NCBI GenBank assembly: GCA_018268375.1
Contig: JAFDWS010000006.1
Coordinates: 479,115 to 543,114 of the forward strand
DNA length: 64,000 bases
Direction of reading: 5' to 3'
Source: Armatimonadota bacterium
GTDB taxonomy: Bacteria > Armatimonadota > Fimbriimonadia > Fimbriimonadales > Fimbriimonadaceae
The notes beneath the pieces are model-generated. The model had not been told where the DNA came from. It saw nothing but the letters and a program-made list of their open reading frames with translations, and did no database searches. Position numbers and translations under genes: made by a program. Each line of letters starts with the position of its first letter. The first letter of the stretch is position 1. Below are positions 13,431 through 60,277 of the stretch, piece by piece.

Positions 13431-14084
13431 TTAAGCTCGTTGCCGACGGCGACGGATGCCAGCGCAGCCTATGATGGCAAGAATCGACAGTGTGCAGGGC
13501 TCGGGAACTATTGTCAACACCCTGACCTGATCGCCGGGAGAACCGGCCGACAGCGCGAACTGGATGGTGTTCGATCCGACGATCACGCTGTCAATGTTGA
13601 TGCCCAGCTCAAGTCCACGGGCAGCAAAGTGGCCGGTGGGGATGTTCCCAGACGGCACGCTCGCCGGAATCAAGAAGTCCGAGGCCACAAATGGGTCGGT
13701 CGGAGCACCGTCGTCGACGATGACGCCGATGATGGTTCCGTCGAACTGGAAGCCGGCGGTCGTGCTCCCGCCGGCGGCCGGATCAAAGTAAAAGGCGTGG
13801 CTGTTCACGACCGTTCCAGCTGCGACGATCCCAGGCGTCAGCGAGCCAGGCGAATTGTAAGTTCCTGGCCCCGTGATGTCCACGGCCACGTTGGACGCCA
13901 GGGTGACGGACTGCTGCTCGTCCCAACCGTGGATCACAAGGGTGTGATCTCCGAAGAAGTCCGGCGTATAGCCGACTCCCGGGCCGGCAGTCAGGATGTC
14001 GCCGGAGCCGCCGACGTTGATGATCGAAGCCGATGAAAGTGCTGTCGTGAGGACGAGTCCGGCGAGAATGTTAAGGGACTTCAC
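13431..14084 (-). CDS. PEP-CTERM sorting-domain exported protein
   Basis: 217 residues. The N-terminus has a signal peptide (MKSLNILAGLVLTTALSSAS). The C-terminus ends in VPEPCTLSILAIIGCAGIRRRRQ, that is a Pro-Glu-Pro motif, a short hydrophobic helix and an Arg cluster, which is the PEP-CTERM tripartite signal recognised by exosortase. The middle is a Gly/Thr/Val-rich beta-sandwich-like region with no recognised enzymatic motif. No exosortase gene lies in the window. It sits between the polymerase gene (downstream, same strand, 34 bases away) and the divergent TPR gene, with 90 bases between starts. Confidence 0.85.
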   Translation of the reverse strand: MKSLNILAGLVLTTALSSASIINVGGSGDILTAGPGVGYTPDFFGDHTLVIHGWDEQQSVTLASNVAVDITGPGTYNSPGSLTPGIVAAGTVVNSHAFYFDPAAGGSTTAGFQFDGTIIGVIVDDGAPTDPFVASDFLIPASVPSGNIPTGHFAARGLELGINIDSVIVGSNTIQFALSAGSPGDQVRVLTIVPEPCTLSILAIIGCAGIRRRRQRA

Positions 14085-14174
14085 AAAGAGACATTGAAGC
14101 TAAGGGGCACAAATGTGACCTAACAAGATGGGGTCCGTCAGCGGTCGAACCCTGCCGGTACACTCGCCGCACAC

Positions 14175-16142
14175 ATGCAGATCGCCGTGCTCCCCTTGAA
14201 CGCGGGCCCGGACACCCGTCCAGCCCTGGCCCGACAGCTCTCCAACTTTGCTTGTGAGATCGCACGGAACGTGACGGGCAAGGAAGTCCACGCCGTGAAC
14301 TATATGGCGCAGTACCCCGACGACAGCGGGGCCACTCGCTTTGCGATGGTCAATCCGAACGAAGCGTTGAACGAGCACGAGATCATTCAGCAGTTCTTCT
14401 CCCAAGCCCAAATGGAGCGGTTGGTCGATGGCCTCCTGACCGAGCGTCAGGGCGGCGGCGGGAACGTCACCCTGAGGGTTTTCAAGCAAGGCGTCAACGA
14501 GCCCGAGGCTTCAGAGGACTTCACCTACCTCCCCGGTGGCATCTTCACCCCTGTTCGTGGTTTTGTGACCATGCTCGTCAAGCAGATCGATGGCGTGATG
14601 CCAGCGGAGATGGAGGACGATGTCAATCTCTTCGGCACCAGCAACCCAGAGGCTTTCGAGCAGTTCTTGATCGGTTTTGACGCCGTGCAGTACATCGAGA
14701 AGGCTCAGGGCATGGTCGCTCTCGAATTCGAACCTGGGCTCGCAATCGAGGCTCTTCAGAAAGCCTTGGCGCTTGACTCGGGGTGGGAGGCGCCGTTCGT
14801 CGCACTGTTGAACCTGACACGGCTTTGCACCCAATACCGCATCGGCAACCCGGAGACCCTCGAGAAGACGATCAAAGACCTGACCGAGTCAGAGCCCGAC
14901 GACCCCCGAGGCTGGTTCGCCCTGGGCGACTTCTACGGAGTGGTCGGGAACGCCCAAGGCGCCGCCGACAACATGGAGAAAGCGATCGTCAAGCTCCAGA
15001 TGAGGGCCGCGAAACTCCACAAGGATGCCGAGGAGGCCCGTAAGGCGGGCGATACGGCCGGTGCGGAGTCCCTCGAATCCGAGGCGCAGCGGACGGCCAA
15101 CGACGAGGCTCCGATCTTGTCTCGGCTCGGAATGGCCCAAATGAACATGGGCATGCCTGCCAATGCCGAACGGAACTTCAAGCGGGCGGTCGAGTTGGAA
15201 GGGCCGGACAAGCCCTCCCTCGGACTGCTGTCCCAGGTTTTGGCGCAGACCGGTCGCTCCCATGAGATCCCCCCGCTCTGGAAGTCTGTCGTCGACTCAA
15301 GCCCACAGAATCCACAAGCCTGGGTCAACTACGCGATGTCGCTCTTGCAGTCGGGCAAGGACGACGAAGGCGTCCAGGCCTTTGAGAGCGCGTTGACGAC
15401 ACTTGAAGAGCCGACCTTCGCCAAGAGGTTTTACGCCGCCTATCTCGCCCAGAAGGGAGACCTCGACCGGGCAATGGACCTCTACGAAGACGTGCTTGAA
15501 GTGGCGCCGACCGAGGTGCCGGTCCTTTGGGAGTACGCCCAGACCCTGACTGCTGCGAAGCGAGCGTTCGAAGCGCCCAAGCCACTGCGAGAGATGCTCA
15601 ATCAAAACCCTGAGCCGAACCTACGGGCCAATGCGCAGGCGATGCTTCTCAAGATCGAGCAACCCAAGCGTGTTGAAGGTGTCGACAATGCAGCAAAGAA
15701 GCTGGCGGAAGGGGACGCAGAAGGCGCCCTTAAGGAGCTCAAGCCGCTGAAGAACTGGCTCGGCGACTACTGGGAGCTTTGGATGCACCTGGCCGACGCC
15801 CACAACAGGCTTGGCGAGTATAAGGAGGCCGAAGAGGCTTGCGCCCAGCTCTTGAACATGTTCCCAGGTTGCGAACCTGCCTATGCCTTGCTTGCTGCAT
15901 CCCTCCACGGCCAAGATCGCGACGAGGACGCCTACAACTTCTTGCGCAACGCGATGATGAACATGCAAGGGTCGCTCACCGTCGGCTTGAACCTGGCCCA
16001 AGCGTGCAAGTGGTCGGGTCGCGATGACGAAGCCCGCGATCTCATTCGTCAAATGCGAGAGGCGACGGGCAACAACCCCGAGATCGGGGAGATCCTCGAC
16101 CAGATCGAGCATGGCGACGGGCCGCGAATCGAGCTGGCCTAA
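14175..16142 (+). CDS. Tetratricopeptide-repeat protein
   Basis: 655 residues, no signal peptide, acidic overall. Residues ~1-170 form a distinct N-terminal domain with the phrase MQIAVLPLNAGPDTRPALARQ. From ~175 to the end the protein is built of helical pairs with TPR spacing, for example the DPRGWFALGDFYGVVGNAQGA, EAPILSRLGMAQMNMGMPANA and GDYWELWMHLADAHNRLGEY segments, each followed by A-x-x-x-(F/Y)-x-x-A. A charged Lys/Glu/Ala helix near 275-310 interrupts the repeats. TPR arrays mediate protein-protein contacts; nothing points to a specific partner. It stands alone between the PEP-CTERM and exporter genes. Confidence 0.85.
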   Translation: MQIAVLPLNAGPDTRPALARQLSNFACEIARNVTGKEVHAVNYMAQYPDDSGATRFAMVNPNEALNEHEIIQQFFSQAQMERLVDGLLTERQGGGGNVTLRVFKQGVNEPEASEDFTYLPGGIFTPVRGFVTMLVKQIDGVMPAEMEDDVNLFGTSNPEAFEQFLIGFDAVQYIEKAQGMVALEFEPGLAIEALQKALALDSGWEAPFVALLNLTRLCTQYRIGNPETLEKTIKDLTESEPDDPRGWFALGDFYGVVGNAQGAADNMEKAIVKLQMRAAKLHKDAEEARKAGDTAGAESLESEAQRTANDEAPILSRLGMAQMNMGMPANAERNFKRAVELEGPDKPSLGLLSQVLAQTGRSHEIPPLWKSVVDSSPQNPQAWVNYAMSLLQSGKDDEGVQAFESALTTLEEPTFAKRFYAAYLAQKGDLDRAMDLYEDVLEVAPTEVPVLWEYAQTLTAAKRAFEAPKPLREMLNQNPEPNLRANAQAMLLKIEQPKRVEGVDNAAKKLAEGDAEGALKELKPLKNWLGDYWELWMHLADAHNRLGEYKEAEEACAQLLNMFPGCEPAYALLAASLHGQDRDEDAYNFLRNAMMNMQGSLTVGLNLAQACKWSGRDDEARDLIRQMREATGNNPEIGEILDQIEHGDGPRIELA

Positions 16143-16259
16143 GGCAAGCACTGCAAGGGCCGCTTTGTCGTCAATCCGGCCTTCAAAGGTAGTTTGTGCC
16201 GCCCTAAGCAGCGTGGCCCGAGGTCGACGATCGACGGGCGCGTAAAATCGGCAGGCCGC

Positions 16260-18254
16260 ATGAGGCTGTTCCGCTCGCTTGACCAGCGCATCGTCGCAGA
16301 GCTCCGAACCCAGAAGAGGACGATCTGGAAGGGGCTGCTCTGTGTCGGCCTGACGAGCCTACTGACAGCAGCCATGGTGCCGATGACAAAGCTCGCCATC
16401 CAGAGCATCGAGGAGGCGGCACCGGTCCGAGTGGACATCTCGGCCCAAGTTCCCTTCGAAAAGGATCTCTCTGACGAGTTGGGAGTCTCGGTAGAGCGAG
16501 TCCGGGAGGCTCTGAACAAACTTCGGCCGATGCCGGCCGCAGCCGACCTCGCGCGGGAGATCGGCGTCACGACCGAGAGTGCCCAGGTCGCCATAGACCA
16601 CGTTAAAGCGCGAGGCAAGACCTTGGAGACACAAGCCCAAATCGGGCGGCGGCAAGACGACGCCCTCGTCAAGCTAGGTGTCCTTTGCCTCGGCGTCGTG
16701 TTCATTTTCGGTGCCAAGTACTTCTTCACCCGCGGGCAGTTCTTCTATCTGAGCAAAGCTTCCGCCGCGCTCGCCAGCGACCTCCGGGTTCGGTTGTTCA
16801 ACAAGCTCCAACGCCTGCCGATCAGCTACTTCAACGACAAGCGGGTGGGCGGCATCCAAAGCGTCCTGACGAACGACATCAACGTCTACCAGAACGCCGT
16901 TTCAGTGATCCGCGACAGCATCGACGGCCCGACGAAGGGAATCCTCGCGCTGGCCAGCATTATTTGGATCAACTGGCAGCTCGCAGTGGTGGCGATGCTG
17001 TTCATCCCGGTGATGGCGTGGTTCGTAAACCGAAATGGCAGACGGATGAAGGCCGCCCAAGCCCAGGTCCAAGAAGACCTCGCCGACCTCAGCGCGATGT
17101 CCCAGGAGGCGTTGAACGGGACGCGCATCGTCAAGGCCTTTGGCGCGGAAGACCGGGTCGGCGGGTTGTTCAAGAAGCTCGTGGACAGGCAATACGAGAG
17201 CCAATTGCGTGCGAACAGGCGTTTCGCGCAGTTGAGGCCCATGGTCGAGTTCATCGGAGCAGTCTCTTTGGCCGCGATCCTCTATATCTGCGGCCACCTT
17301 GCGCGGGCCGGCGCTCTCAGGATCAGCGATATCATTGCGCTGACCTTCGCACTCGACATCATTAACCAGGGCGCAAGGAGCCTCGCCAACGTCAATAACA
17401 CCTACAACCAGGTGCAAGCCGCAGCGGACAGGATCTATGCGGAGGTGCTCGCGGTGCCCGAGGAGAGCCAAGTCGACGACGGGCTCACACTGACAAGCCC
17501 CCAGGGGAGAATCGAGTTCAAGGATGTCTCGTTCAGTTACCCTGACGGGACGAAAGCGCTTGAAAACGTGAGCTTCGTGATCGAGCCAGGAACTTCGCTC
17601 GCCCTTGTCGGCCCAAGCGGGGCGGGCAAGAGCACGATCGCAGATCTTGTGCTCCGGTTCTATGACCCGACTGAAGGGCACGTTCTTTTCGACGGGAAAG
17701 ACATTCGAAAACTGAAGACCTCCTGGTACCGAAGCCAATTTGGAGTGGTTCCCCAGCAAACGTTCTTGTTCGCTGGCTCGATCGCAGAAAACCTCCGTCT
17801 AGGCATGCCGGACGCGAGTGACCAAGACTTGGAGAAGGCCGCGAAGATGGCTCACGCAGAAGCCTTCATTGAGTCCACTTCCGAGGGCTACCGCACGGAA
17901 CTTGGCGAGCGCGGAGTGCGGCTCAGCGGTGGCGAAGGGCAACGCTTGGCCATCGCCCGTGCGCTTGTTCGAAATCCCCTCGTCCTGCTATTGGACGAGG
18001 CGACCAGCAACCTCGACGCACACAGCGAGAAGGCGGTCACCGAAGCCCTGACAGAGCTGATGCAGCAGAAGACCACCCTTTTCATCGCGCACCGGCTGAC
18101 CACCGCCGCAAGGGCCGACCGAATCCTGGTTCTCCGCAGGGGCCAGATTGTCGAAGAGGGGTCGCACGCAAGCCTCATGGGATCAAAAGGCACATACGCG
18201 GCGATGTACGAGGCGTTCTCAAGCGGCTTGCTGGGGGAAGAGGGCCTTGGCTGA
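16260..18254 (+). CDS. MsbA-like ABC exporter (fused membrane and ATPase domains) with enlarged first loop
   Basis: 664 residues from the ATG at 16260. TM1 lies at about 22-45, and TM2 only at about 136-155, so the first extracytoplasmic loop is ~90 residues instead of the usual 10-30. That loop holds two similar helical segments (69-88 and 96-115). TM3-TM6 follow up to ~400. The nucleotide-binding domain has Walker A GPSGAGKST, Q-loop VPQQTF, signature LSGGEGQR, Walker B LLLDEATSNLD and switch His in IAHRL. Such homodimeric exporters flip lipids or export drugs. An extension upstream of 16260 has no homology. It overlaps the next ATPase gene by 8 bases. Confidence 0.9.
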   Translation: MRLFRSLDQRIVAELRTQKRTIWKGLLCVGLTSLLTAAMVPMTKLAIQSIEEAAPVRVDISAQVPFEKDLSDELGVSVERVREALNKLRPMPAAADLAREIGVTTESAQVAIDHVKARGKTLETQAQIGRRQDDALVKLGVLCLGVVFIFGAKYFFTRGQFFYLSKASAALASDLRVRLFNKLQRLPISYFNDKRVGGIQSVLTNDINVYQNAVSVIRDSIDGPTKGILALASIIWINWQLAVVAMLFIPVMAWFVNRNGRRMKAAQAQVQEDLADLSAMSQEALNGTRIVKAFGAEDRVGGLFKKLVDRQYESQLRANRRFAQLRPMVEFIGAVSLAAILYICGHLARAGALRISDIIALTFALDIINQGARSLANVNNTYNQVQAAADRIYAEVLAVPEESQVDDGLTLTSPQGRIEFKDVSFSYPDGTKALENVSFVIEPGTSLALVGPSGAGKSTIADLVLRFYDPTEGHVLFDGKDIRKLKTSWYRSQFGVVPQQTFLFAGSIAENLRLGMPDASDQDLEKAAKMAHAEAFIESTSEGYRTELGERGVRLSGGEGQRLAIARALVRNPLVLLLDEATSNLDAHSEKAVTEALTELMQQKTTLFIAHRLTTAARADRILVLRRGQIVEEGSHASLMGSKGTYAAMYEAFSSGLLGEEGLG

Positions 18255-49976: not shown

Positions 49977-50454
49977 TCAGAATGTTCGAATCGTGCGAAA
50001 CTGAGACCAATTGGGATCGCTCTGGTACTCCATTTGAGGGCCAAACTGGGATAATTCCAACTGAAGTTCACCCATCAGCTTTGCCCCGTCCCTCGCATAG
50101 AGGATCCAGTCCCGCTTGCCGTTCAGCATGATGATTGCGGGTTGATAGAAGTCGAGCTTGTCAGAGAGCTCGTCAAGCCTATTCTGGGCTTCGTCGAACA
50201 TGTCCATCTCGGCCGACGACGGTAACGGAGAAGAGGCGTAAAACAGCGAGAAGTAGACGAGGTCCGGGTGGCTCCTCTCGATGGGATGGTTCTTCGTCAG
50301 GACACGAGTACCAATCGTCTGACCCGAAGCGTCAAGAATGCGTGAAAGTGTCGTAATCCGGCGCCAGGTTCCACTGCGCTTCCAAAAGGGTCGCATCCGT
50401 TGATAAGTATGAACGGTAGGCGGCGAGTGGTTGAACGGAAATCGGAACCACCAT
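49977..50454 (-). pseudogene. DUF695-like gene with a frameshift
   Basis: The C-terminal part (49977-50396 frame) has DUF695 features: RSHPDLVYFSLFYASSP, DEAQNRLDELSDKL, a GKRDWILYARDG strand and the end SDPNWSQFRTIRTF. The expected N-terminal part is in another frame (MVVPISVQPLAAYRSYL...QWNLAPDYDTFT, ATG at 50454, stopping at 50332). The two join if one base is skipped near 50335-50350, so the gene is probably broken by a one-base change, although programmed frameshifting cannot be excluded. Function of DUF695 is unknown; it often occurs near mobile genes. It is flanked by the two 39-bp direct repeats. Confidence 0.5.
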
Positions 50455-50518: not shown

Positions 50519-50719
50519 TTGGGCAGGATGAGTAGGGTGGTCGAAGACAACTCAGGCACGCGTTCGAACAATGGTCGTTGCACATGATCAGAGGACGCCT
50601 CTCGAACATATCTGCTTCCCTAATTCCAACATCAAAGCAGACTTTGTTCGAACCGTTGCGCCCATGCTGAGAGTCTGGTGGTGACAGCCAAGTGTCGTCA
50701 CGGGTGTATATTGGCTGCC

Positions 50720-51643
50720 ATGCAACCAATCGAAATTGGACTCGCCCTGGTTGCGGTGCCTGCGTGCAAGATTCGGCAATCGGACCTTGCCACCTGGGAA
50801 CAAATGGCCAAGGACGAGAATAGTCAGTACAACCTCTATTTCATCGTTAGGCAGCCGCGTGTGACCCTGATTCCAAAGGATGGCCCAAAAGGCACGACGG
50901 AGAGCTTGCTCCTGGCCATGCAGACTCCGACAGGGACGGAGCAAGAGGAAGTCGAGTTAAAGGTGCAGGGGGCTCCGGCCAACAGCTATTTTGTCAGCGA
51001 CCCGCCCCACTCAAAATTTCGATTGATTTCAAATGGAAAAACGTATCCAGACATAAATGTTGCCGATTACGCTCTAGGTGTGTTTGAAGAACTAAGTAAG
51101 CTTGAGTTGGTCTACGTGGGGCAAACGTTTGGCGAAGACGGTGAACGAACTATCCAGCAACGATTAGAACAACACGCAACATTTCAAAAAATCCTCGCGG
51201 ACACGAGCGAAAATGCTCCGCACTTAGAGGTTTGGATAATGCCTGTGAGACTGGTACCTTCTGGACTCGCTATGCTGCGAATTGGAAAGGATTCGGAGTC
51301 CGTGTCAGCTGAAGCGATATTGCGAATGTCCGAGTTTCTGCTAGAGTACAAGTTTCCAAGGAAAGAAGAGGTGAACCTTGGCGAAGCTGCTCTCATTCGA
51401 TACTTTCAACCGCGTTACAACATTAAGTTTAAGGCTAGTTTTCCGGACAAGAGCCACACGTCATATGCTACTGTATTTGCCGATGACTACAATTGTGTTG
51501 CGGCAGAAGTTGGGCTTGAAGGGACAGGTTATGAAATCTTTTCGGATGTGGTCGAACCATCCGCGCATCCTATTGCCGAGTTCCCCCTTATTGCCGATGA
51601 AGACCGTTTCCAGATGCTCGATGCTTCGACCTGGTCTCAGTAA
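50720..51643 (+). CDS. GIY-YIG-nuclease-like protein
   Basis: 307 residues from the ATG at 50720. The N-terminal ~125 residues are an unrecognised domain (LALVAVPACKIRQSDLATWEQM). Residues ~126-240 match the GIY-YIG layout: LVYVGQT (132-134 as the YxG core), then ERTIQQRLEQHATFQKIL with Arg148 and His152, and NLGEAALIRYFQPRYN with the metal-binding Glu222 and Asn234. Between R/H and Glu lies a ~65-residue insertion. The C-terminal part (about 240-307) is another unknown region. GIY-YIG domains are endonucleases in repair, homing or restriction. First gene of the cargo run; 131 bases separate it from the next gene. Lower G+C than its surroundings. Confidence 0.65.
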   Translation: MQPIEIGLALVAVPACKIRQSDLATWEQMAKDENSQYNLYFIVRQPRVTLIPKDGPKGTTESLLLAMQTPTGTEQEEVELKVQGAPANSYFVSDPPHSKFRLISNGKTYPDINVADYALGVFEELSKLELVYVGQTFGEDGERTIQQRLEQHATFQKILADTSENAPHLEVWIMPVRLVPSGLAMLRIGKDSESVSAEAILRMSEFLLEYKFPRKEEVNLGEAALIRYFQPRYNIKFKASFPDKSHTSYATVFADDYNCVAAEVGLEGTGYEIFSDVVEPSAHPIAEFPLIADEDRFQMLDASTWSQ

Positions 51644-51774
51644 GTCGGCTTCTCTTCGACTCTTGCCTGCGTTCCGCCATTGAAGGATCACGCTCCCATG
51701 ACAAGGTAACACATGTCTACCTTAGAATGGTAGACTTCTTGTTGGGCGCTGACCCAGCACGAGGACTATGGACT

Positions 51775-52818
51775 ATGTTTGAAAATCTGCTGAGAGAGCT
51801 TCGAAAATTTGAGCATGGCGTGCGAATCGAAGTTCGGGTCGAGACCGACGAGAAGGGCTTCCTCGACCGAAAATGCCCGCATGAAAACTGTGGGGAGCAT
51901 TTCAAGGTCCTGCTTAAGGACTGGAAAGACAAGGTGCCTGACGCGAAGGCGTACTGCCCGATCTGTGGCGGTAGTGCTCGTAGCACTGAGTGGAACACTC
52001 CTGAGCAGGAGCGATCCTTCTCCGATCAGGCGCACAACCATGTCTCGCAGCTCATCGCGGATGCGAACGAGAAAGACGTTAGCGCGTTCAATTCAAGGCA
52101 ACCTTCTGGGGGGTTCATATCTATGCGGATGGAGCATAGGAGAGGGTTGCTCCTTCCGACACTTCCAAGTCGGGCTAGAGATGCCTTTGAACAGGAGTTC
52201 CAATGTGAACAGTGTGCTTGCCAATACTCTTCCGTTGGGGCAGCATTCTTTTGCCCAGCGTGCGGCCACAATTCGGCTGGCTCCCAGTACTGGGCCGCTC
52301 TTGAGGCCGTTCGCAAGCTCTTGGACGGAGTCGAGGAACTTAGAGCCCACCTGGAGCAGTCGGTCGGTCGCGACGGTGCCCGCGACATCGTCCGCCTGTT
52401 GGTCGAGAACACTGCCACAAAACTCGTTGGATCATTCCAGCGGTTTGCAGAGGTCAGATACTCTGAAATTGCAGGCCAGATTCCTAGACGAAACGTCTTT
52501 CAAGGGGTCGCAGCTGGATCTGACCTCTGGCTCGCAGTGACGGGTTCCAGCTACGAATCCCTCATTGGCCCAACTGACCTTGCAACCATTTCGCGCTTAT
52601 TCCAGCAACGACACCTGTTCGCTCATCGAGACGGCATCGTTGACCAGGATTATGTCGACCGCTCCGGCGACCGCAGGTTCTCACCGGGGCAACGGCTCAT
52701 AGTAAGTGTTGACGAGGTACGTCGTGTTCTGGATGTCCTCGACCGCCTTGCGCGGGGGATGAGCAATGGGCCCGAAAATGCGAATTCCGGGCACGACCCG
52801 TCCTTACCTCTAACATGA
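51775..52818 (+). CDS. Zinc-ribbon protein with C-terminal HEPN-like RX4H motif
   Basis: 347 residues from the ATG at 51775, with GAGGA nine bases upstream; an in-frame ATG at 51727 lies without such a site. Two cysteine clusters: CPHENCG...CPICGG (34, 39, 61, 64) and CEQC...CPACGHN (144, 147, 160, 163), two zinc ribbons. Residues ~175-335 are helical and contain LFQQRHLFAHRDG, that is Arg279-x4-His284, the active-site pattern of HEPN RNases, within the common RHxxxHxxG-type stretch. Such proteins cut RNA in toxin-antitoxin and abortive-infection systems. The gene overlaps the next by four bases (ATGA). Function is inferred, not shown. Confidence 0.62.
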   Translation: MFENLLRELRKFEHGVRIEVRVETDEKGFLDRKCPHENCGEHFKVLLKDWKDKVPDAKAYCPICGGSARSTEWNTPEQERSFSDQAHNHVSQLIADANEKDVSAFNSRQPSGGFISMRMEHRRGLLLPTLPSRARDAFEQEFQCEQCACQYSSVGAAFFCPACGHNSAGSQYWAALEAVRKLLDGVEELRAHLEQSVGRDGARDIVRLLVENTATKLVGSFQRFAEVRYSEIAGQIPRRNVFQGVAAGSDLWLAVTGSSYESLIGPTDLATISRLFQQRHLFAHRDGIVDQDYVDRSGDRRFSPGQRLIVSVDEVRRVLDVLDRLARGMSNGPENANSGHDPSLPLT

Positions 52819-53804
52819 TTGATCAAAAGCGACGCATCGCATTGGCTGCGGCGGCCCTCAGGCGAGAAGAGGAGCGGCTTCGAGACAATGTCAACCACGG
52901 GCTCATGGAGGAGCATTTGGGCAAGGATCAAGCCCTCTTCAACCGAGTTTGCGCCGTTATGGACAATGTTGGCGACACCACGCTGGCGCTCGCTCACCTG
53001 CCAAATAGTGGTGGCGAGGAAAAGGGAATGGCCTACCTGGTGACACATGGAGCCTTTCAGAGCATGGAAATCCTTGTGAGTGCATGCCGACTCATCGGTG
53101 CTGACCTTGGAGTGTCGTACTCGAAGGAACTCGACGCGGAGATCGACAGGATCAAGGACGTGCGAGTTCGGGTGACGGGCCATCCCTACGACTTCAAGAG
53201 CAACAAGAAGACCGGGCGCAGAGCCGGCACTAGCGGCATCAGTCGGATCACCCTTGGTATTAGCGGGTTTAGCCTTCACGAATGGACCGAGGACGGTAAA
53301 TGCATGATCACCGGGGTCAGCACGTTCGACTATGCAGTTAAGAGTCTGAGGATCGCACGCCGCTGCCTCCGATATGTCAATGAAGCGCTCTCAGTCCGTG
53401 TCAAAGACTTAGAACGAGAGTGGGTTGCTCGCCCACTTTATGACCATGTAGCGCAGCTCACCTATTGGTGCGGCAAGCTCAACGAGGCCGTGCGTACCGG
53501 AGCCGCGCCCGTTGGCATCCTGCAAACCATCGAGGAAACTTTGGTGCAACTTCGTGCTGACAAGCGCGTGGCAGGCGGAAATGGTGAGGGGCTCAGATAC
53601 CACCTGGACTTCACAGACGAGGCGATTCGCCTGCTCAAGTGCGCATGGAGCGACCCTCAGCAACCGTCAGCGGATCTGCAGCAGGAGCGTGTAAATTCTC
53701 GGTTTCTTGCCGACCAATGTAACGACATCGTGTCCGCGTGCCAAAGTCTTGACCGGGCATTTGACCCTGATGCGGGTCTGCCGGTTGTACTGGTCGCAGA
53801 CTAA
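52815..53804 (+). CDS. HEPN-like helical protein, partner of the preceding gene
   Basis: 329 residues, all-helical, cytoplasmic. Residues 109-123 read EIDRIKDVRVRVTGHP: Arg117-x5-His123 in the context (I/L)(R/K)DxRxxxxGHP that recurs in HEPN-fold proteins. The stop of the previous gene and this ATG overlap, so the two are made in fixed proportion. I do not recognise a family. A second possibility is that it is an antitoxin-like or inactive HEPN relative. It is separated from the DpdA-like gene by 61 bases. Confidence 0.5.
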   Translation: MIDQKRRIALAAAALRREEERLRDNVNHGLMEEHLGKDQALFNRVCAVMDNVGDTTLALAHLPNSGGEEKGMAYLVTHGAFQSMEILVSACRLIGADLGVSYSKELDAEIDRIKDVRVRVTGHPYDFKSNKKTGRRAGTSGISRITLGISGFSLHEWTEDGKCMITGVSTFDYAVKSLRIARRCLRYVNEALSVRVKDLEREWVARPLYDHVAQLTYWCGKLNEAVRTGAAPVGILQTIEETLVQLRADKRVAGGNGEGLRYHLDFTDEAIRLLKCAWSDPQQPSADLQQERVNSRFLADQCNDIVSACQSLDRAFDPDAGLPVVLVAD

Positions 53805-53865
53805 GGGCCAGTCCGAGTAACGCATGCGTGCGGTACCCTCGCCTTGACAGCCAGCGGTAGACTAA

Positions 53866-55566
53866 TTGAAGCGAGTGAGCAGGCAGTTGCTGGTGCTCGG
53901 ATGTTCCCAGACGAAGCGCGAGACGCCAGGGGAACTCCCGGCGATAGACAGATATGACGGGCCCCCGTACCGAGTTCTGAGAGGGTTCCTGCGGCATCGT
54001 GCCTGGCCTCAGGATTTGTCCGTGGCGATCCTTTCGGCGGAGCACGGTCTTTTCGGTGGACTCAAACCAATCGCGCACTACGACCAACGGATGAACGCTG
54101 CGGGCGTGCTCAAACATAAGGACACCTGCCGAACGACCTTAGCTGCCTGGTCCAAGTCACATTCCAGCATCCATTTTTCACTCGGGAAGGATTACCTGCC
54201 CGCTGTAAAGGACTCCATCGAGCACGATTTGAAGGGTAAAGCCGAGGTCTTTGAGGGACCGATTGGCATGAAACTTCACCAAATCAAAGGTTTTCTGGAA
54301 TCTACGAAGTCGCCACATAGATCAAAGCCAACTGTAGTTCCCGGTGCAGGAAAGATTACATATTTCCTGCCCGACTGGGACGACCTTCTTGACGGTGATT
54401 TTGATTTCGCAAACGATTCCTTTTCCGGCTCTTCGAGAAGCCTGAGACATGATCAGCATTGCTGCATTCTGATGAAGCCGAAACGGATGTGCGACGGGGT
54501 CTTGGTTAGCCTTGCACAGCACGTAACATCCAAGGGTCCCCTTCGACGCATCATCGGCACCGAGGAAGGCTCTCTTGCACCTAGGCACCTCAGAAACCAA
54601 TTTGGCCTTCAGGATGACCAATGGCTTTTCGGAGATTGCGGTGCCTTCAGCTACCTCAACGAGGATCGGCCAGCAATTGAAGTCGAACAGGCAGTTGCCC
54701 TCTACGAACTTCATGGATTCGACTTTGGTGCCTCAGTGGATCACATTCCGGTCAAGGCTGTGGTGCGCGACGGCAAGTCCATCGATTTGACCGAAGAGCA
54801 GCGGCAGGAGCGTGTCAATACGACCAAGAGGAATGCGGAGCGCTTCCTAGGCTTGGTTAGGTCGCGGAACCTCGGCTTCACTCCGGTAGGAACGATCCAG
54901 GCGCTCAGCCCATCGGCTTACGGTGAAACCGTCCGACACTACTGCGACCTGGGCTACGAGCATATCGCCGTCGGTGGTCTGGTGCCGCTACAAGATTCGC
55001 TTGTTGAGCAAATCGTGACAGCGGTCACTGCTGCAGCAAATGACATGAAGAGCCGCCCCTGGATTCACTTATTTGGCGTGTTCCGACCGAAACTCCAATC
55101 GAAGTTCCGCGAGCTGGGAGTAGACAGTTTCGACAGCGCAACCTATTTCAGAAAGGCGTGGCTCCGGTCGGACCAAAACTATCTCGCAGCCAATGGGAAG
55201 TGGTATTCGGCCCTTCGTATTCCAATGACCAGTGATGGCAGGACGCGGAAGAAACTCGAGGCAAATGGAGCCAACATCATCGAACTGGAGCTCGAAGAAG
55301 CACACGTACTGAAGCTATTATCGGAATTTGAAAGTGGAGGGGTCGCAGTTGATACCGTGGTCGAAGCGCTCCTTTCGTATGATGAGCACCTGACAAGGTC
55401 AAGTGAGTCGAGGTCGCTTCGTGACAAATACCGCAAGACGCTTGAAGACCGACCGTGGGAGGATTGTGACTGCCCGTTTTGTTCGAAGGCGGGGATTCAC
55501 GTCCTCGTATTTCGCGGAGCAAATCGAAACAAACGACGTGGTGCGCATAACACACTCATGCTCTAA
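53866..55566 (+). CDS. DpdA-like tRNA-guanine-transglycosylase fold protein with N-terminal YaaA/DUF6884-like domain
   Basis: 566 residues (TTG at 53866; GTG at 53875 is an alternative). N-terminal ~130 residues: LVLGCSQTKRE, PAIDRYDGPPYRVLRG, VAILSAEHGLFG, HYDQRM, as in DUF6884/YaaA-like domains. From ~250 the protein follows the DpdA pattern, a TGT relative that exchanges a base in DNA for preQ0: FGDCGAFSY (Asp257), DFGASVDHI, LGFTPVGTIQ, YEHIAVGGLV, HLFGVFRP, SFDSATYFR (Asp423, nucleophile position) and the zinc site Cys534-x-Cys536-x2-Cys539 plus His561 in NKRRGAHN. All catalytic and zinc positions are thus kept. The protein ends 5 residues after the zinc His, maybe cut short by the adjoining recombinase remnant. 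No preQ0-synthesis or other dpd genes are nearby. Confidence 0.8.
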   Translation: MKRVSRQLLVLGCSQTKRETPGELPAIDRYDGPPYRVLRGFLRHRAWPQDLSVAILSAEHGLFGGLKPIAHYDQRMNAAGVLKHKDTCRTTLAAWSKSHSSIHFSLGKDYLPAVKDSIEHDLKGKAEVFEGPIGMKLHQIKGFLESTKSPHRSKPTVVPGAGKITYFLPDWDDLLDGDFDFANDSFSGSSRSLRHDQHCCILMKPKRMCDGVLVSLAQHVTSKGPLRRIIGTEEGSLAPRHLRNQFGLQDDQWLFGDCGAFSYLNEDRPAIEVEQAVALYELHGFDFGASVDHIPVKAVVRDGKSIDLTEEQRQERVNTTKRNAERFLGLVRSRNLGFTPVGTIQALSPSAYGETVRHYCDLGYEHIAVGGLVPLQDSLVEQIVTAVTAAANDMKSRPWIHLFGVFRPKLQSKFRELGVDSFDSATYFRKAWLRSDQNYLAANGKWYSALRIPMTSDGRTRKKLEANGANIIELELEEAHVLKLLSEFESGGVAVDTVVEALLSYDEHLTRSSESRSLRDKYRKTLEDRPWEDCDCPFCSKAGIHVLVFRGANRNKRRGAHNTLML

Positions 55567-56842
55567 GGTGGACCGCTTGTACCGAAACTTCGCCGACTAC
55601 GTGAAGGTGGACAGTCTCAAAGTCGAGCTGCACTTCGTGAAAGAGGGCATGGTCGTCTCCGAGTCCTCCAAGAGCCAAGACAAGTTCATGCACGGAATCC
55701 GTGTGCTGATGGCGAAGAACTATGTCGACAACCTGTCCGAGGAGATTCGCAAGGGCTTGGACGAGAAGGCCGCTCAAGGCATCTATCCGACCCATGCGCC
55801 GCTCGGCTATCTCAACTCGCTCGAGCCCGGTACTAGAAGGAAGATCATCGTGCCCGATCCGGCAAGAGCGGTGCTGGTGAAGGAACTGTTCGAGGTCTAC
55901 GGAAGCGGAGGCTCCTCGCTCGAGGTCTTGACCAAGCACGCTCAAAAGATTGGGCTGACCAGCAAGAAGGGACGGCCGTTGCCGCGGAGCGGCGTTGCCC
56001 AACTCCTGAAACACCCTGTTTACTGCGGCGTCGTCCGTTGGTCTGGAAAGGAGACGAAAGGAGTCCACGAACCTCTGGTCAGCCGCGACCTGTGGGAACA
56101 GTGCCAGGCAGTGATGTCTGGGCGCAAGAACAACAACAGCGGTTACGGTGTTAAAGACTTCGCTTACCGTGGCCTCGTCCGTTGCAAGTGTGGTGGCGTC
56201 ATGACCGGAGAAGTCAAGCAAGGGAAGTTCGTGTACTACCACTGCGCGGGCAGAAAGAAGCATGTCTGTGGTCAGCCGTTCGTGAGGGAAGAAAAACTGA
56301 CGGAGCAGTTCGCCGCGCGCCTCGACGAGATACTTCTCGACCCTTGTGACATGGAATGGCTCGTTTACGGATTGGACGAATTCACAGTAGACCGAACCGC
56401 GAGGCGCGATAACAGGGAGGCCGAGATAACGGCGGAGGTCGCCTCGCTCAAGGTTAGGCTCGAAACTCTCTACCTCGACAAACTCTCCGGCGACGTCAGT
56501 CCCGCGTTCTATTCAGAGACCCGCCAGAAGTGGGAAGCCAAGGTCACAGACCTTGAGCTTGAACTGGCCGCGCTCGACCGGGCAGAGGCGGTTGCAGGAT
56601 GGGAGGTCGCCCGGGTGCTCGAAGTGGCGTCCGAGGCATCGAGTAGGTTCAAAAGCCTGAATTCTGCCGAGCGCCGGACAGTCGTCGAAGAAGTGTGCTC
56701 GAACTGCCGATGGGAGGACGGCGAGCTAAAGATCGAATTCAATCCCCTTTGGGATTTGATGCTGAACGCTCTGGTGTCCAAACGATCCGATGCCGATCCC
56801 AAGGGGCGTCAAGCGGCGAAATCTGTAGATTGGTGGAGATGA
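55565..56842 (+). pseudogene. Large serine recombinase, N-terminal catalytic domain missing
   Basis: The recombinase similarity begins abruptly at KVDRLYRNFADYV (55565), which lies ~80 residues into a normal large serine recombinase, so the resolvase domain with the active-site Ser is absent. What remains is the E-helix region, the recombinase domain (GIYPTHAPLGYLN), the zinc beta-ribbon (RCKCGGVMTG...YHC...HVCGQP) and the coiled-coil motif (ITAEVASLKVRLETLYLDKL). The frame stays open upstream to 55403, but that part overlaps dpdA out of frame and is not recombinase-like. The remnant starts at the base where the DpdA-like gene ends, so a deletion or recombination joined the two. It should be inactive. 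Confidence 0.75.
56831..56840 (+). repeat. Third copy of the ten-base TGGTGGAGAT at the recombinase 3' end
   Basis: The last codons of the recombinase remnant (Trp-Trp-Arg-stop) are encoded by TGGTGGAGATGA. The first ten bases equal the start of both 39-bp repeats at 49762 and 50480. Large serine recombinase genes usually lie next to one attachment site, so this may be an att half-site. Confidence 0.35.
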
Positions 56843-56914: not shown

Positions 56915-58114
56915 ATGAAATTGAAAGCAGTGATGCCCCGCGATAGAAGCGCCAATCTTCGTTTCAATGAGCGTACCCAACGATGGGATTATTTGGTTCG
57001 GCTGGTACGCCCCGACGGTAGCCTATTTAGGCGCGCAGGATCGGCAGTCTCAGAAGCCGAGTCGCGCGAGAAACGCAACGCGGCCTATCGCGAATTCAAT
57101 AACGATCTTGGTGTGGCCAAAGAAGAGAAGAAGCGCACACGGCGCGAAGGTGCGAATGACCTTCGAGGATGGACCGAGCGGGTTATGCCACTAATCAGGC
57201 ACGACTGCGCCCCGACGACCTTCGAAGCCTATTGCCACAGTTTGGAGAACCACGTATTGCCAGCACTTGGGTTGCTCCCACTCGAAGAAGTGCGTTCACT
57301 GGTCATTACCGAGCACTTGCAGAAGTTGAGCAAGGAGTTGAGTCCTGGTGTCGCCTCGCAGGCCCGGTCAGCGCTGTCCAGAGTCTTGCAGATAGCCGCT
57401 TCGGACGGACGCATTCCAGCCAATCCGGTCTCAAGTGTTCGGATCGGTGCAAGAGAGCGAAAGCTCAACCGGATCGAACGAGCCAAAAGCGGCGAGACGG
57501 GCAAGCGTTGGCTATCCCTCAGCGAGGGAAAGCACCTGCTCGTCAAGTCCAAGGGCACAGCAGCCTATATGCCTATACTGCTTGGGCTACGTTTCGGCCT
57601 ACGCTCCGGCGAAGCTTTGGGCTTGCGCTGGAGCGATGTGGACATCGCTAAAGGCGTCATGAGGATACAACAGCAAGCGGTTTGTCTCAAGGGCGTTGCT
57701 CGCCAGATTGTGCCGCCAAAGAGTGCAGCCGGTGTCCGCGATATGCCGATCCCAACCGACATTCTTGAGGAACTCACCCTCTGCAAGGCAAATGCCGAGG
57801 CAACGGGAATCGAATGGGTCTGCGTCGATGCAGGCGGCGCGCCGTTGCATCCTAAGCATGTCTCGCGGATTATCAAGGATGCTGTCACAAGCGCAGGCTT
57901 TGACGGCTCTGACGGAAACGAAGTTCCAACTAGTCACGACTTCAGATCGAGTTACCTAAGTTGGCTAGCGAACCACGCGAACAATGGAGCCGGTGTAAAG
58001 CCGCACGTTTTAATCGCTCTGGCAGGACACACCGACATCAACGTGGCGATGACTTATTATGTCAAGGCAGGAGCGGAGGACTTAGCTTCGGCGGTAAATT
58101 CGTTGTCCTTATAG
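56915..58114 (+). CDS. Tyrosine recombinase/integrase
   Basis: 399 residues, intact. N-terminal arm-binding region (~1-80, basic), SAM-like core-binding domain (~84-175, TTFEAYCHSLENHVLPALG) and catalytic domain with Arg230 in FGLRSGEALGLRW, Lys269 in PPKSAAG, His341 and Arg344 in SHDFRSS, His372 in LAGHTD and Tyr381/382 in AMTYY. It should integrate the element into and excise it from the chromosome. The start is the ATG at 56915. It converges on the excisionase-like gene, with 8 bases between stops. Confidence 0.92.
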   Translation: MKLKAVMPRDRSANLRFNERTQRWDYLVRLVRPDGSLFRRAGSAVSEAESREKRNAAYREFNNDLGVAKEEKKRTRREGANDLRGWTERVMPLIRHDCAPTTFEAYCHSLENHVLPALGLLPLEEVRSLVITEHLQKLSKELSPGVASQARSALSRVLQIAASDGRIPANPVSSVRIGARERKLNRIERAKSGETGKRWLSLSEGKHLLVKSKGTAAYMPILLGLRFGLRSGEALGLRWSDVDIAKGVMRIQQQAVCLKGVARQIVPPKSAAGVRDMPIPTDILEELTLCKANAEATGIEWVCVDAGGAPLHPKHVSRIIKDAVTSAGFDGSDGNEVPTSHDFRSSYLSWLANHANNGAGVKPHVLIALAGHTDINVAMTYYVKAGAEDLASAVNSLSL

Positions 58115-59272: not shown

Positions 59273-60277
59273 TTACCCGGGCATGTCCGGCCCGGCTTGA
59301 TTTCGGTCCCGACGACTCTCCACATACTTCCGCCATCCGTCCCCGCCCGATGATTCATCGTTCAGAAACTCAAGGGAGCGGTCATAGAGACGCCCAAGGG
59401 CGACCGCCGCCCGGTCTCTCCACGTCTTGCCGAGGCCCTCTTGACGGACCTCTCCAGACCGTTCCACGTCTCGAATCGCCGGTAATACTACATTACGCAT
59501 TCTAACCCGGCGTGCGTTGCGCACCCTGTCAGGATCATGCAGCTTCCCTAACCGCTGCATATTAGTCGCGGAAACGCCGATTTTTGGTTCGGGAAGGCGG
59601 TCGATCCCCTGATCGGCCAGCGACCGGTGATCGACGCGCGACGCACTGCCAGCCGAGGCAAGTGCGTCATTTTCAGCTTTGGCCCAGGATTCGCGCCAAT
59701 GGTCAAGATCGCTTATCGCGCCCTTTCCCACAGCACCGCGCCCGTAGAATTTGCCGTCCGTGCTTGGCTTAAGCCCAAAGCCATGCTCATCCACGGGGCG
59801 TAGCGAACAAAGCACGTGCGCGTGCGGATTCTTGCCGTCCTTTGAGCGATGGACGGCAAAATCGACGACGAACCCCTTGGAAACTATCTCTTTGTTGCAC
59901 CACGTCTTCACCGCCTCAATCTGCTGGTTGAGACTAAGTTCGACCGGCAGCGCAATGACGAACTCGCGAGCAAGCTGAGAATCCTTGCGTTTCTCAACGC
60001 GCTCGATCTCGTTCCAGAGTTGCTGGCGCTTTTCTTTTGATTCAGGGGCTTGCAGCCAAACCGGAGCGTTATCGTTAGCAAGGATTTCCCGGTGTACTAC
60101 TTCTTGGCTACGCGAGCGATAATCGAACGTCTGCTCGATCCGCTCATCGCGTAGTCGTTCGCCAGCGCGGTACGCGGCTCTGGCGACCGCAGAAACCTGT
60201 TTGCCGGCAATTGCCTTGCCCGCCTTGTCTTTCGCCTGGCGGCAGATCAATTTTGCTTCTAGCCTATATAGGGCCAC
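59273..60277 (-). CDS. mobA: MOBQ-family relaxase (MobA/MobL)
   Basis: 334 residues. The relaxase cleaves one strand at oriT and leads the DNA to the recipient cell. Motif I Tyr36 lies in AAYRAG, and the metal-binding motif III has His143, His152 and His154 in FAVHRSKDGKNPHAHVL, the layout of MobA/MobL proteins. The C-terminal ~150 residues are helical and charged; no primase domain follows, unlike RSF1010 MobA. Its upstream region contains the oriT candidate at 60381, in the position normal for this family. Confidence 0.88.
   Translation of the reverse strand: MALYRLEAKLICRQAKDKAGKAIAGKQVSAVARAAYRAGERLRDERIEQTFDYRSRSQEVVHREILANDNAPVWLQAPESKEKRQQLWNEIERVEKRKDSQLAREFVIALPVELSLNQQIEAVKTWCNKEIVSKGFVVDFAVHRSKDGKNPHAHVLCSLRPVDEHGFGLKPSTDGKFYGRGAVGKGAISDLDHWRESWAKAENDALASAGSASRVDHRSLADQGIDRLPEPKIGVSATNMQRLGKLHDPDRVRNARRVRMRNVVLPAIRDVERSGEVRQEGLGKTWRDRAAVALGRLYDRSLEFLNDESSGGDGWRKYVESRRDRNQAGPDMPG

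Follow-up and report, generated by a model that had tools for sequence, protein, structure and literature searches.

A DpdA-type transglycosylase in an Armatimonadota defence island, the probable orphan of a DpdA-UvrD-RecB system

The locus and gene 4

The stretch considered here (the window) comprises 64,000 nucleotides of contig JAFDWS010000006.1 from an Armatimonadota bacterium. Between positions 50720 and 55566 it carries four open reading frames, g1 to g4 (Table 1), and the focus of this report is the last of them, which encodes a DpdA-type DNA-guanine transglycosylase preceded by a second domain. In a first-pass annotation, made from the sequence alone, the four had been described as same-strand genes with small spacing and proposed to form one modification and nuclease module. 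The layout was confirmed, with gaps of 83 bp (g1-g2) and 61 bp (g3-g4) and a 4-bp overlap of g2 and g3.

Table 1. Positions of g1 to g4, the domains of g4, the junction and the carrying element in the window
Feature	Position	Strand	Remark
g1	50720-51643	+	GIY-YIG-like protein; alternative GTG start at 50678 possible
g2	51727-52818	+	double zinc-ribbon plus HEPN-motif protein, PDC-M14A-like
g3	52815-53804	+	R-x5-GHP motif protein
g4	53866-55566	+	DUF6884-DpdA; TTG start
g4 N-terminal domain, DUF6884 (YaaA/DpdC superfamily)	53866-54315	+	CxxxK and LSAxxG motifs kept
g4 C-terminal domain, DpdA DNA-guanine transglycosylase core	54342-55566	+	ends early, NTLML-stop
Probable deletion junction	55563-55567	.	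dpdA stops; serine-recombinase coding starts in the middle of the resolvase domain
5'-truncated large serine recombinase	55567-56842	+	PF00239 matched from position 69 only; comparison with L061
Tyrosine integrase of carrying element	56915-58114	+	PF00589, E 4e-15
MobA/MobL relaxase of carrying element	59273-60277	-	PF03389, E 3e-65

By sequence comparison, g4 is beyond doubt a DpdA. It scored 319.5 bits against NCBIfam NF041059 (cut-off 200), matched the PADLOC DpdA model at E 2e-89, and its residues 153-564 matched the solved DpdA 7ui4 in the Protein Data Bank (PDB) at E 1e-61. The earlier description of a DpdA-like protein with its catalytic and zinc residues kept was borne out: the catalytic aspartates D257 and D423, together with C534, C536, C539 and H561 of the zinc site (CxCx2C...H), are invariant in alignments of 9 and of 25 members. 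A lack of the active-site geometry of a tRNA-guanine transglycosylase (TGT), which would have spoken against the first-pass proposal, is not indicated: the AlphaFold model of g4 (predicted local distance difference test score, pLDDT, 89) was matched to 7ui4 by Foldseek at E 1e-31 over 407 columns. By analogy with DpdA proteins, g4 would insert preQ0 into DNA.

Residues 1-150 of g4 form a separate DUF6884 domain that the first-pass annotation had overlooked and that is modelled by AlphaFold with a pLDDT of 96. In the literature, DUF6884 is a YaaA-like family of putative DNA-binding function, marked by CxxxK and LSAxxG motifs (PMC11701544), and the GATOR-GC paper reported it as a domain detected in DpdC (PMC11888242). 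A profile comparison (hhalign) was made between 22 DUF6884 domains and 16 proteins whose genes lie upstream of dpdA/dpdB, where DpdC is encoded, four of them being confirmed as DpdC by PADLOC; the domain matched the N-terminal half of DpdC at E 3e-9. The PADLOC DpdC models gave no match to the window domain and matched an archaeal relative at 7e-7, and a sequence search of the PDB with the DUF6884 profile returned nothing significant. On these comparisons the domain is a member of the DpdC superfamily rather than a DpdC, because the C-terminal half of DpdC is missing from it.

Relatives of gene 4 and their partners

Relatives were collected by scanning GTDB species-representative genomes and IMG/VR with an alignment of gene 4. 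The same DUF6884-DpdA fusion was found at full length at 21 loci, with 41-65% identity, in at least nine bacterial phyla; its carriers include Nitrospira, Pelotomaculum, Ammonifex, Latescibacteria, SAR202, Dehalococcoidia, Planctomycetota, Acidimicrobiales, Marinicaulis, Thiosymbion, Thermoanaerobaculia, Desulfobacterales and others. Each of the 21 loci has, beside dpdA or within a few genes of it, a helicase of the UvrD family (PF00580 where members were scanned) and a RecB-like nuclease (PF12705, PDDEXK_1), and DpdB, a DGQHR/ParB-like protein, was found at none. Such pairs were already visible in the set found with queries from locus L042 alone. DpdA, UvrD and RecB are also all present at four archaeal loci (L071, L074, L078, L081) and at the bacterial locus L075, where a separate DUF6884 gene was detected in each case save L081. 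Nearly every UvrD retains the Walker A and DExQD motifs, and all long RecBs retain a DYK motif; PADLOC recognised the helicase only as a GajB-like UvrD (E 1e-31) and the nuclease weakly as Cas4-like.

At the 30 loci with the pair, no family besides DpdA, UvrD and RecB is present throughout. Among the families that follow in frequency are QueD (5), QueC (4), QueE (2) and a VUT transporter (2), and a preQ0 gene lies in 9 of the 30, compared with none of 22 loci that are not in the DpdA table. In a tree of 92 DpdA cores, the window protein nests in a UvrD-RecB clade (20 relatives plus the window, support 0.999) that is separate from the DpdB-associated branch. The true partners of the DpdA family of gene 4 are a UvrD helicase and a RecB-like nuclease. 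This linkage to a DNA helicase and nuclease, universal in the clade, bears on whether g4 could be a TGT-like tRNA enzyme whose relatives stand beside UvrD-RecB by coincidence. Enzymes acting on tRNA do occur in the TGT superfamily, but a canonical TGT is already encoded in the host genome and the DNA-guanine transglycosylase 7ui4 is by far the best match of g4, so that an RNA substrate is extremely improbable.

The association was also recovered from the side of the nuclease. Among 2.9 million viral contigs, the RecB profile found two loci on two contigs, both with DpdA (18 kb apart in one of them). Among 72,556 plasmids, three matches of at least about 40% identity were obtained, all on plasmids with DpdA and within about 10 kb of it (hypergeometric p about 1e-11). 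In Bradyrhizobium 41S5 and Rhizobium WYJ-E13, a UvrD-RecB pair adjoins a DpdB-DpdA-DpdB-Que cluster; the annotation of the stretch shown for the former contains no dpdD-K operon, and the record of the latter is without annotation. The pair seems able to serve classical synthesis genes too. Two UvrD-RecB subfamilies were found to swap as a unit, with UvrD and RecB distances correlated at r 0.95, and DpdA is only loosely tied to the subfamily present (r 0.24). In Thiosymbion, two species (L066 and L067) carry DpdAs that are 94% identical beside UvrD-RecB cassettes of different subfamilies. Since the linkage of DpdA with a cassette outlasts the exchange of partners, a functional link between them is argued.

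Several further arrangements were observed around these genes. An 86-kb viral contig (IMGVR_UViG_3300006094_000039; L048, L148) carries both UvrD-RecB subfamilies about 18 kb apart, together with one DpdA and a separate DUF6884 gene. On the viral contig of L042, a gene for a 947-amino-acid methyltransferase-like protein (13551-16394) follows DpdA-UvrD-RecB, and a distant relative of it is found near DpdA in L076. A HerA-type (DUF87) ATPase, or a shared neighbour of that family, lies near DpdA at seven loci (L053, L055, L070, L072, L073, L089, L090), three of which (L070, L072, L073) belong to Poribacteria and are without UvrD-RecB.

The junction and the proposed system

The window gene ends in ...RRGAHNTLML-stop, and the last residues of its family are absent; its close relatives read ...RRGAHNTLMLYGSL... 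and then continue into uvrD. Directly after the stop codon of g4, in another frame, the sequence AAG GTG GAC CGC TTG TAC belongs to the interior of a serine recombinase that lacks the first 68 positions of its Resolvase domain, a part which we take to include the catalytic serine. At a Planctomycetales locus (L061), the gene order is dpdA-uvrD-recB-serine recombinase. No UvrD or RecB remnants were found in the window, and the UvrD-RecB pair of the family is on no contig of the window's own genome. A search of the phylum with the RecB profile gave no matches at all, a result that confirms only the absence in this genome. Judged from these sequences, the simplest history is probably a deletion of ~4 kb in which uvrD, recB and the beginning of the recombinase gene were lost, and the deletion appears to be real rather than an error of assembly.

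QueC is present in the host genome, and preQ0 should therefore be available to an orphan enzyme. Homology, conserved linkage, residue conservation, the absence of the partners, the presence of QueC and the assembly junction together point to g4 as the orphaned modification enzyme of a DpdB-free, three-gene, 7-deazaguanine restriction-like system whose cassette was lost by deletion, a reading to which we give a probability of about 0.62. The earlier proposal of a restriction-like combination of modification and nuclease thus holds for the family of gene 4 and fails for the four genes as that system. In such a system, the DpdA domain would exchange guanine in DNA for host-made preQ0, and the DUF6884 domain would bind DNA or might convert the inserted base, as DpdC converts dPreQ0 to dADG. 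The UvrD helicase and the RecB-like PD-(D/E)XK nuclease would unwind unmarked DNA and break it down. In the window, the helicase-nuclease pair would have been lost when a deletion joined the 3' end of dpdA to the interior of the recombinase gene, which would leave an orphan writer in a mobile defence island. A wider class of DpdB-free 7-deazaguanine restriction across bacteria and archaea, in which DUF6884-DpdA marks DNA, an exchangeable UvrD-RecB cassette destroys what is unmarked and the window represents the cassette-lost state, has slightly better than an even chance of being real. Analogy with Dpd systems (PMC6884629; PMC11888242) is the ground for the proposed base, target, direction of self/non-self discrimination and defence function, including protection from phage.

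A number of points weigh against this interpretation. The short RecB subfamily is less specific, in that one of its three best plasmid matches adjoins DISARM and not DpdA. UvrD-RecB pairs serve repair as well. The presumed ancestral order including the serine recombinase is found at L061 only. The DUF6884 domain covers the N-terminal half of DpdC only and its model gave no significant Foldseek match in the PDB, hence no structural proof of kinship with DpdC; because of these two results, base conversion by this domain is a guess. Finally, the junction of dpdA and recombinase might be an assembly artefact, with an intact operon in the organism. The genome is 92.6% complete in 12 contigs and the junction was judged from the assembly rather than from reads, but it lies inside a 573-kb contig and a UvrD-RecB pair of the family was found on no contig, so that misassembly is improbable.

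The orphan might also have a use of its own. If the solitary DpdA still modifies DNA, 7-deazaguanine could shield the carrying element from other restriction enzymes. The reading frame and the catalytic and zinc residues of g4 are intact and QueC lies on the chromosome, and a phage DpdA alone has been shown to insert dPreQ0, the modified phage DNA being protected (PMC6884629). The C-terminus of g4 is shortened, however, and protective modification is compatible with, rather than exclusive of, a recent loss of the effectors. As an explanation in its own right it is unlikely, though to be taken seriously; the window copy may persist as a solitary modifier or may be decaying.

The first-pass annotation had seen in a mobile element a DpdA-type gene lacking its usual dpd partners, and this view is supported. 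PADLOC found no DpdB and no Dpd match other than DpdA among the cluster genes, and dpdD-K were absent from the shared neighbour families of the relatives. The canonical Dpd system (the dpdA-K type of S. Montevideo) resembles the family of gene 4 in its DpdA core (31% identical to the Enterobacter homologue; 7ui4 match), in preQ0 genes that lie nearby or in the host, and in the presence of a DpdC-superfamily domain. It differs in that the gene 4 family is without DpdB and dpdD-K, has DUF6884 fused to DpdA without the C-terminal half of DpdC, and is accompanied by UvrD and a RecB-like nuclease in place of SNF2/YprA-type helicases and a PLD nuclease. Cyanobacterial-type DpdAs (about 690 amino acids; L035, L036, L091, L102) likewise have an N-terminal DUF6884-like domain followed by the DpdA core, but they form a separate branch of the tree and have different partners (DEAD helicases, a second TGT); one plasmid of this type (L036/L146) also carries a long RecB and helicase pair about 9 kb away. 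Gabija (GajA-GajB) shares the UvrD-family helicase that the GajB models match, whereas here the partner nuclease is of the PDDEXK_1 type instead of OLD/TOPRIM, and every locus studied includes an enzyme that modifies bases.

The usual signature of a Dpd system is DpdA together with DpdB and a long restriction operon. A search requiring dpdAB, as in PMC11888242, cannot see the DUF6884-DpdA family. Two published defence systems, BRIGADE (PMC12458937) and BRC (PMC12839542), also combine 7-deazaguanine or TGT genes with other helicases or translocases. In the parts of these two accounts that were available, the companions are YprA-like helicases or PglZ-DUF6079-HerA-type genes, and UvrD-RecB partners of a DpdA are not mentioned. 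The literature searched held no report of DpdA or TGT paired with UvrD/RecB, although earlier Dpd literature may hold a prior mention, and a DpdA-UvrD-RecB system is apparently undescribed. If the proposal is true, this three-gene form would rank with the simplest systems of 7-deazaguanine restriction, and both the minimum marking step (one chain, no DpdB ATPase) and the effector that reads the mark would become testable. The exchange of cassettes beside near-identical DpdAs would then offer a natural experiment on the coupling of modification to nuclease.

Genes 1 to 3 and the surrounding island

Co-occurrence was searched for g1 to g4 in 291 genomes of the phylum and in plasmids, for g4 also in phages, and for g2, g3 and g4 also in viral contigs. 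In the phylum, relatives of g2 were found in five other genomes, of g3 in three and of g4 in four (two of the g4 matches covering the DUF6884 domain only), and of g1 in none. Two of the four genes were never found together outside the window's own genome, nor at any one locus among the plasmids, phages and viral contigs as searched, and no relative of g1, g2 or g3 occurs at any of the 89 loci obtained from the DpdA scans of genomes and viral contigs. The four genes are all real, yet they are not a conserved module, and the gene grouping proposed for the window is corrected accordingly. In a module, DpdA would mark DNA while the GIY-YIG and HEPN nucleases attacked an unmarked invader in place of UvrD-RecB. 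The common strand and close spacing fit this, and a further replacement is conceivable in a family whose UvrD-RecB effectors are exchangeable; because that exchange is real, the module idea keeps a low weight. It is not supported, because no second locus combines as many as two of them; g2 is found with many other systems, and the cut that the junction makes in the 3' end of dpdA fits loss better than orderly replacement. We regard it as decidedly improbable, and the defence island that holds dpdA probably carries the HEPN and GIY-YIG genes as separate cargo.

The assignment of g1 rests on similarity below curated cut-offs: it matched Eco29kI/GIY-YIG models at E 0.005 and 0.19, the best GIY-YIG match reaching 17.1 bits against a cut-off of 30.8. 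The pattern YVG..R..H..E..P.YN is kept between g1 and plasmid relatives of 32-34% identity, which stand alone near transposase/integrase genes and near no DpdA, and g1 looks like independent cargo of a defence island or mobile element. The zinc ribbon and RX4H motif ascribed to g2 proved correct, the cysteine pairs and R295-H296-x3-H300 being invariant in nine sequences. The motif has the form of a HEPN RNase motif (R-x4-6-H, a polar residue after R, conserved in the family), and g2 matched the PADLOC candidate PDC-M14A at E 4e-15; a PDB sequence search with the g2 profile gave nothing significant, and PDC-M14 was not found in the literature. Relatives of g2 neighbour a KAP-type NTPase, a large NTPase, a PLD protein and an OLD-UvrD (Gabija-like) pair. 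Because it stands beside so many unrelated defence genes, g2 looks like a general accessory of defence loci. On a viral contig (L141, 1892-6963), a g2 relative lies directly 3' of an OLD-TOPRIM and UvrD (Gabija-like) pair, which suggests that HEPN proteins of the g2 type are add-ons to known systems. In g3, the RX5H motif noted earlier was likewise found, as R117-x5-H123-P, in all five sequences aligned. The domain libraries gave no match to g3, viral contigs held no homologue, and its three distant homologues in the phylum occur without g2 or g4; from its sequence, g3 as a HEPN protein is unproven.

From about 49 kb of the window, and on to its right, the DNA forms a defence island. A complete Hma system (L032, 1405-11168; G000:C9:544404-554167) lies immediately beyond the right end of the window, with HmaA at 1700, HmaB at 1343 and HmaC at 1132 bits, and is followed by a pair of type II restriction endonuclease-like and methyltransferase genes and by a second tyrosine-recombinase-like gene. 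At the left edge of the low-GC (guanine plus cytosine) region, a gene for a DUF695 protein (49977-50396, minus strand) is possibly near the island boundary.

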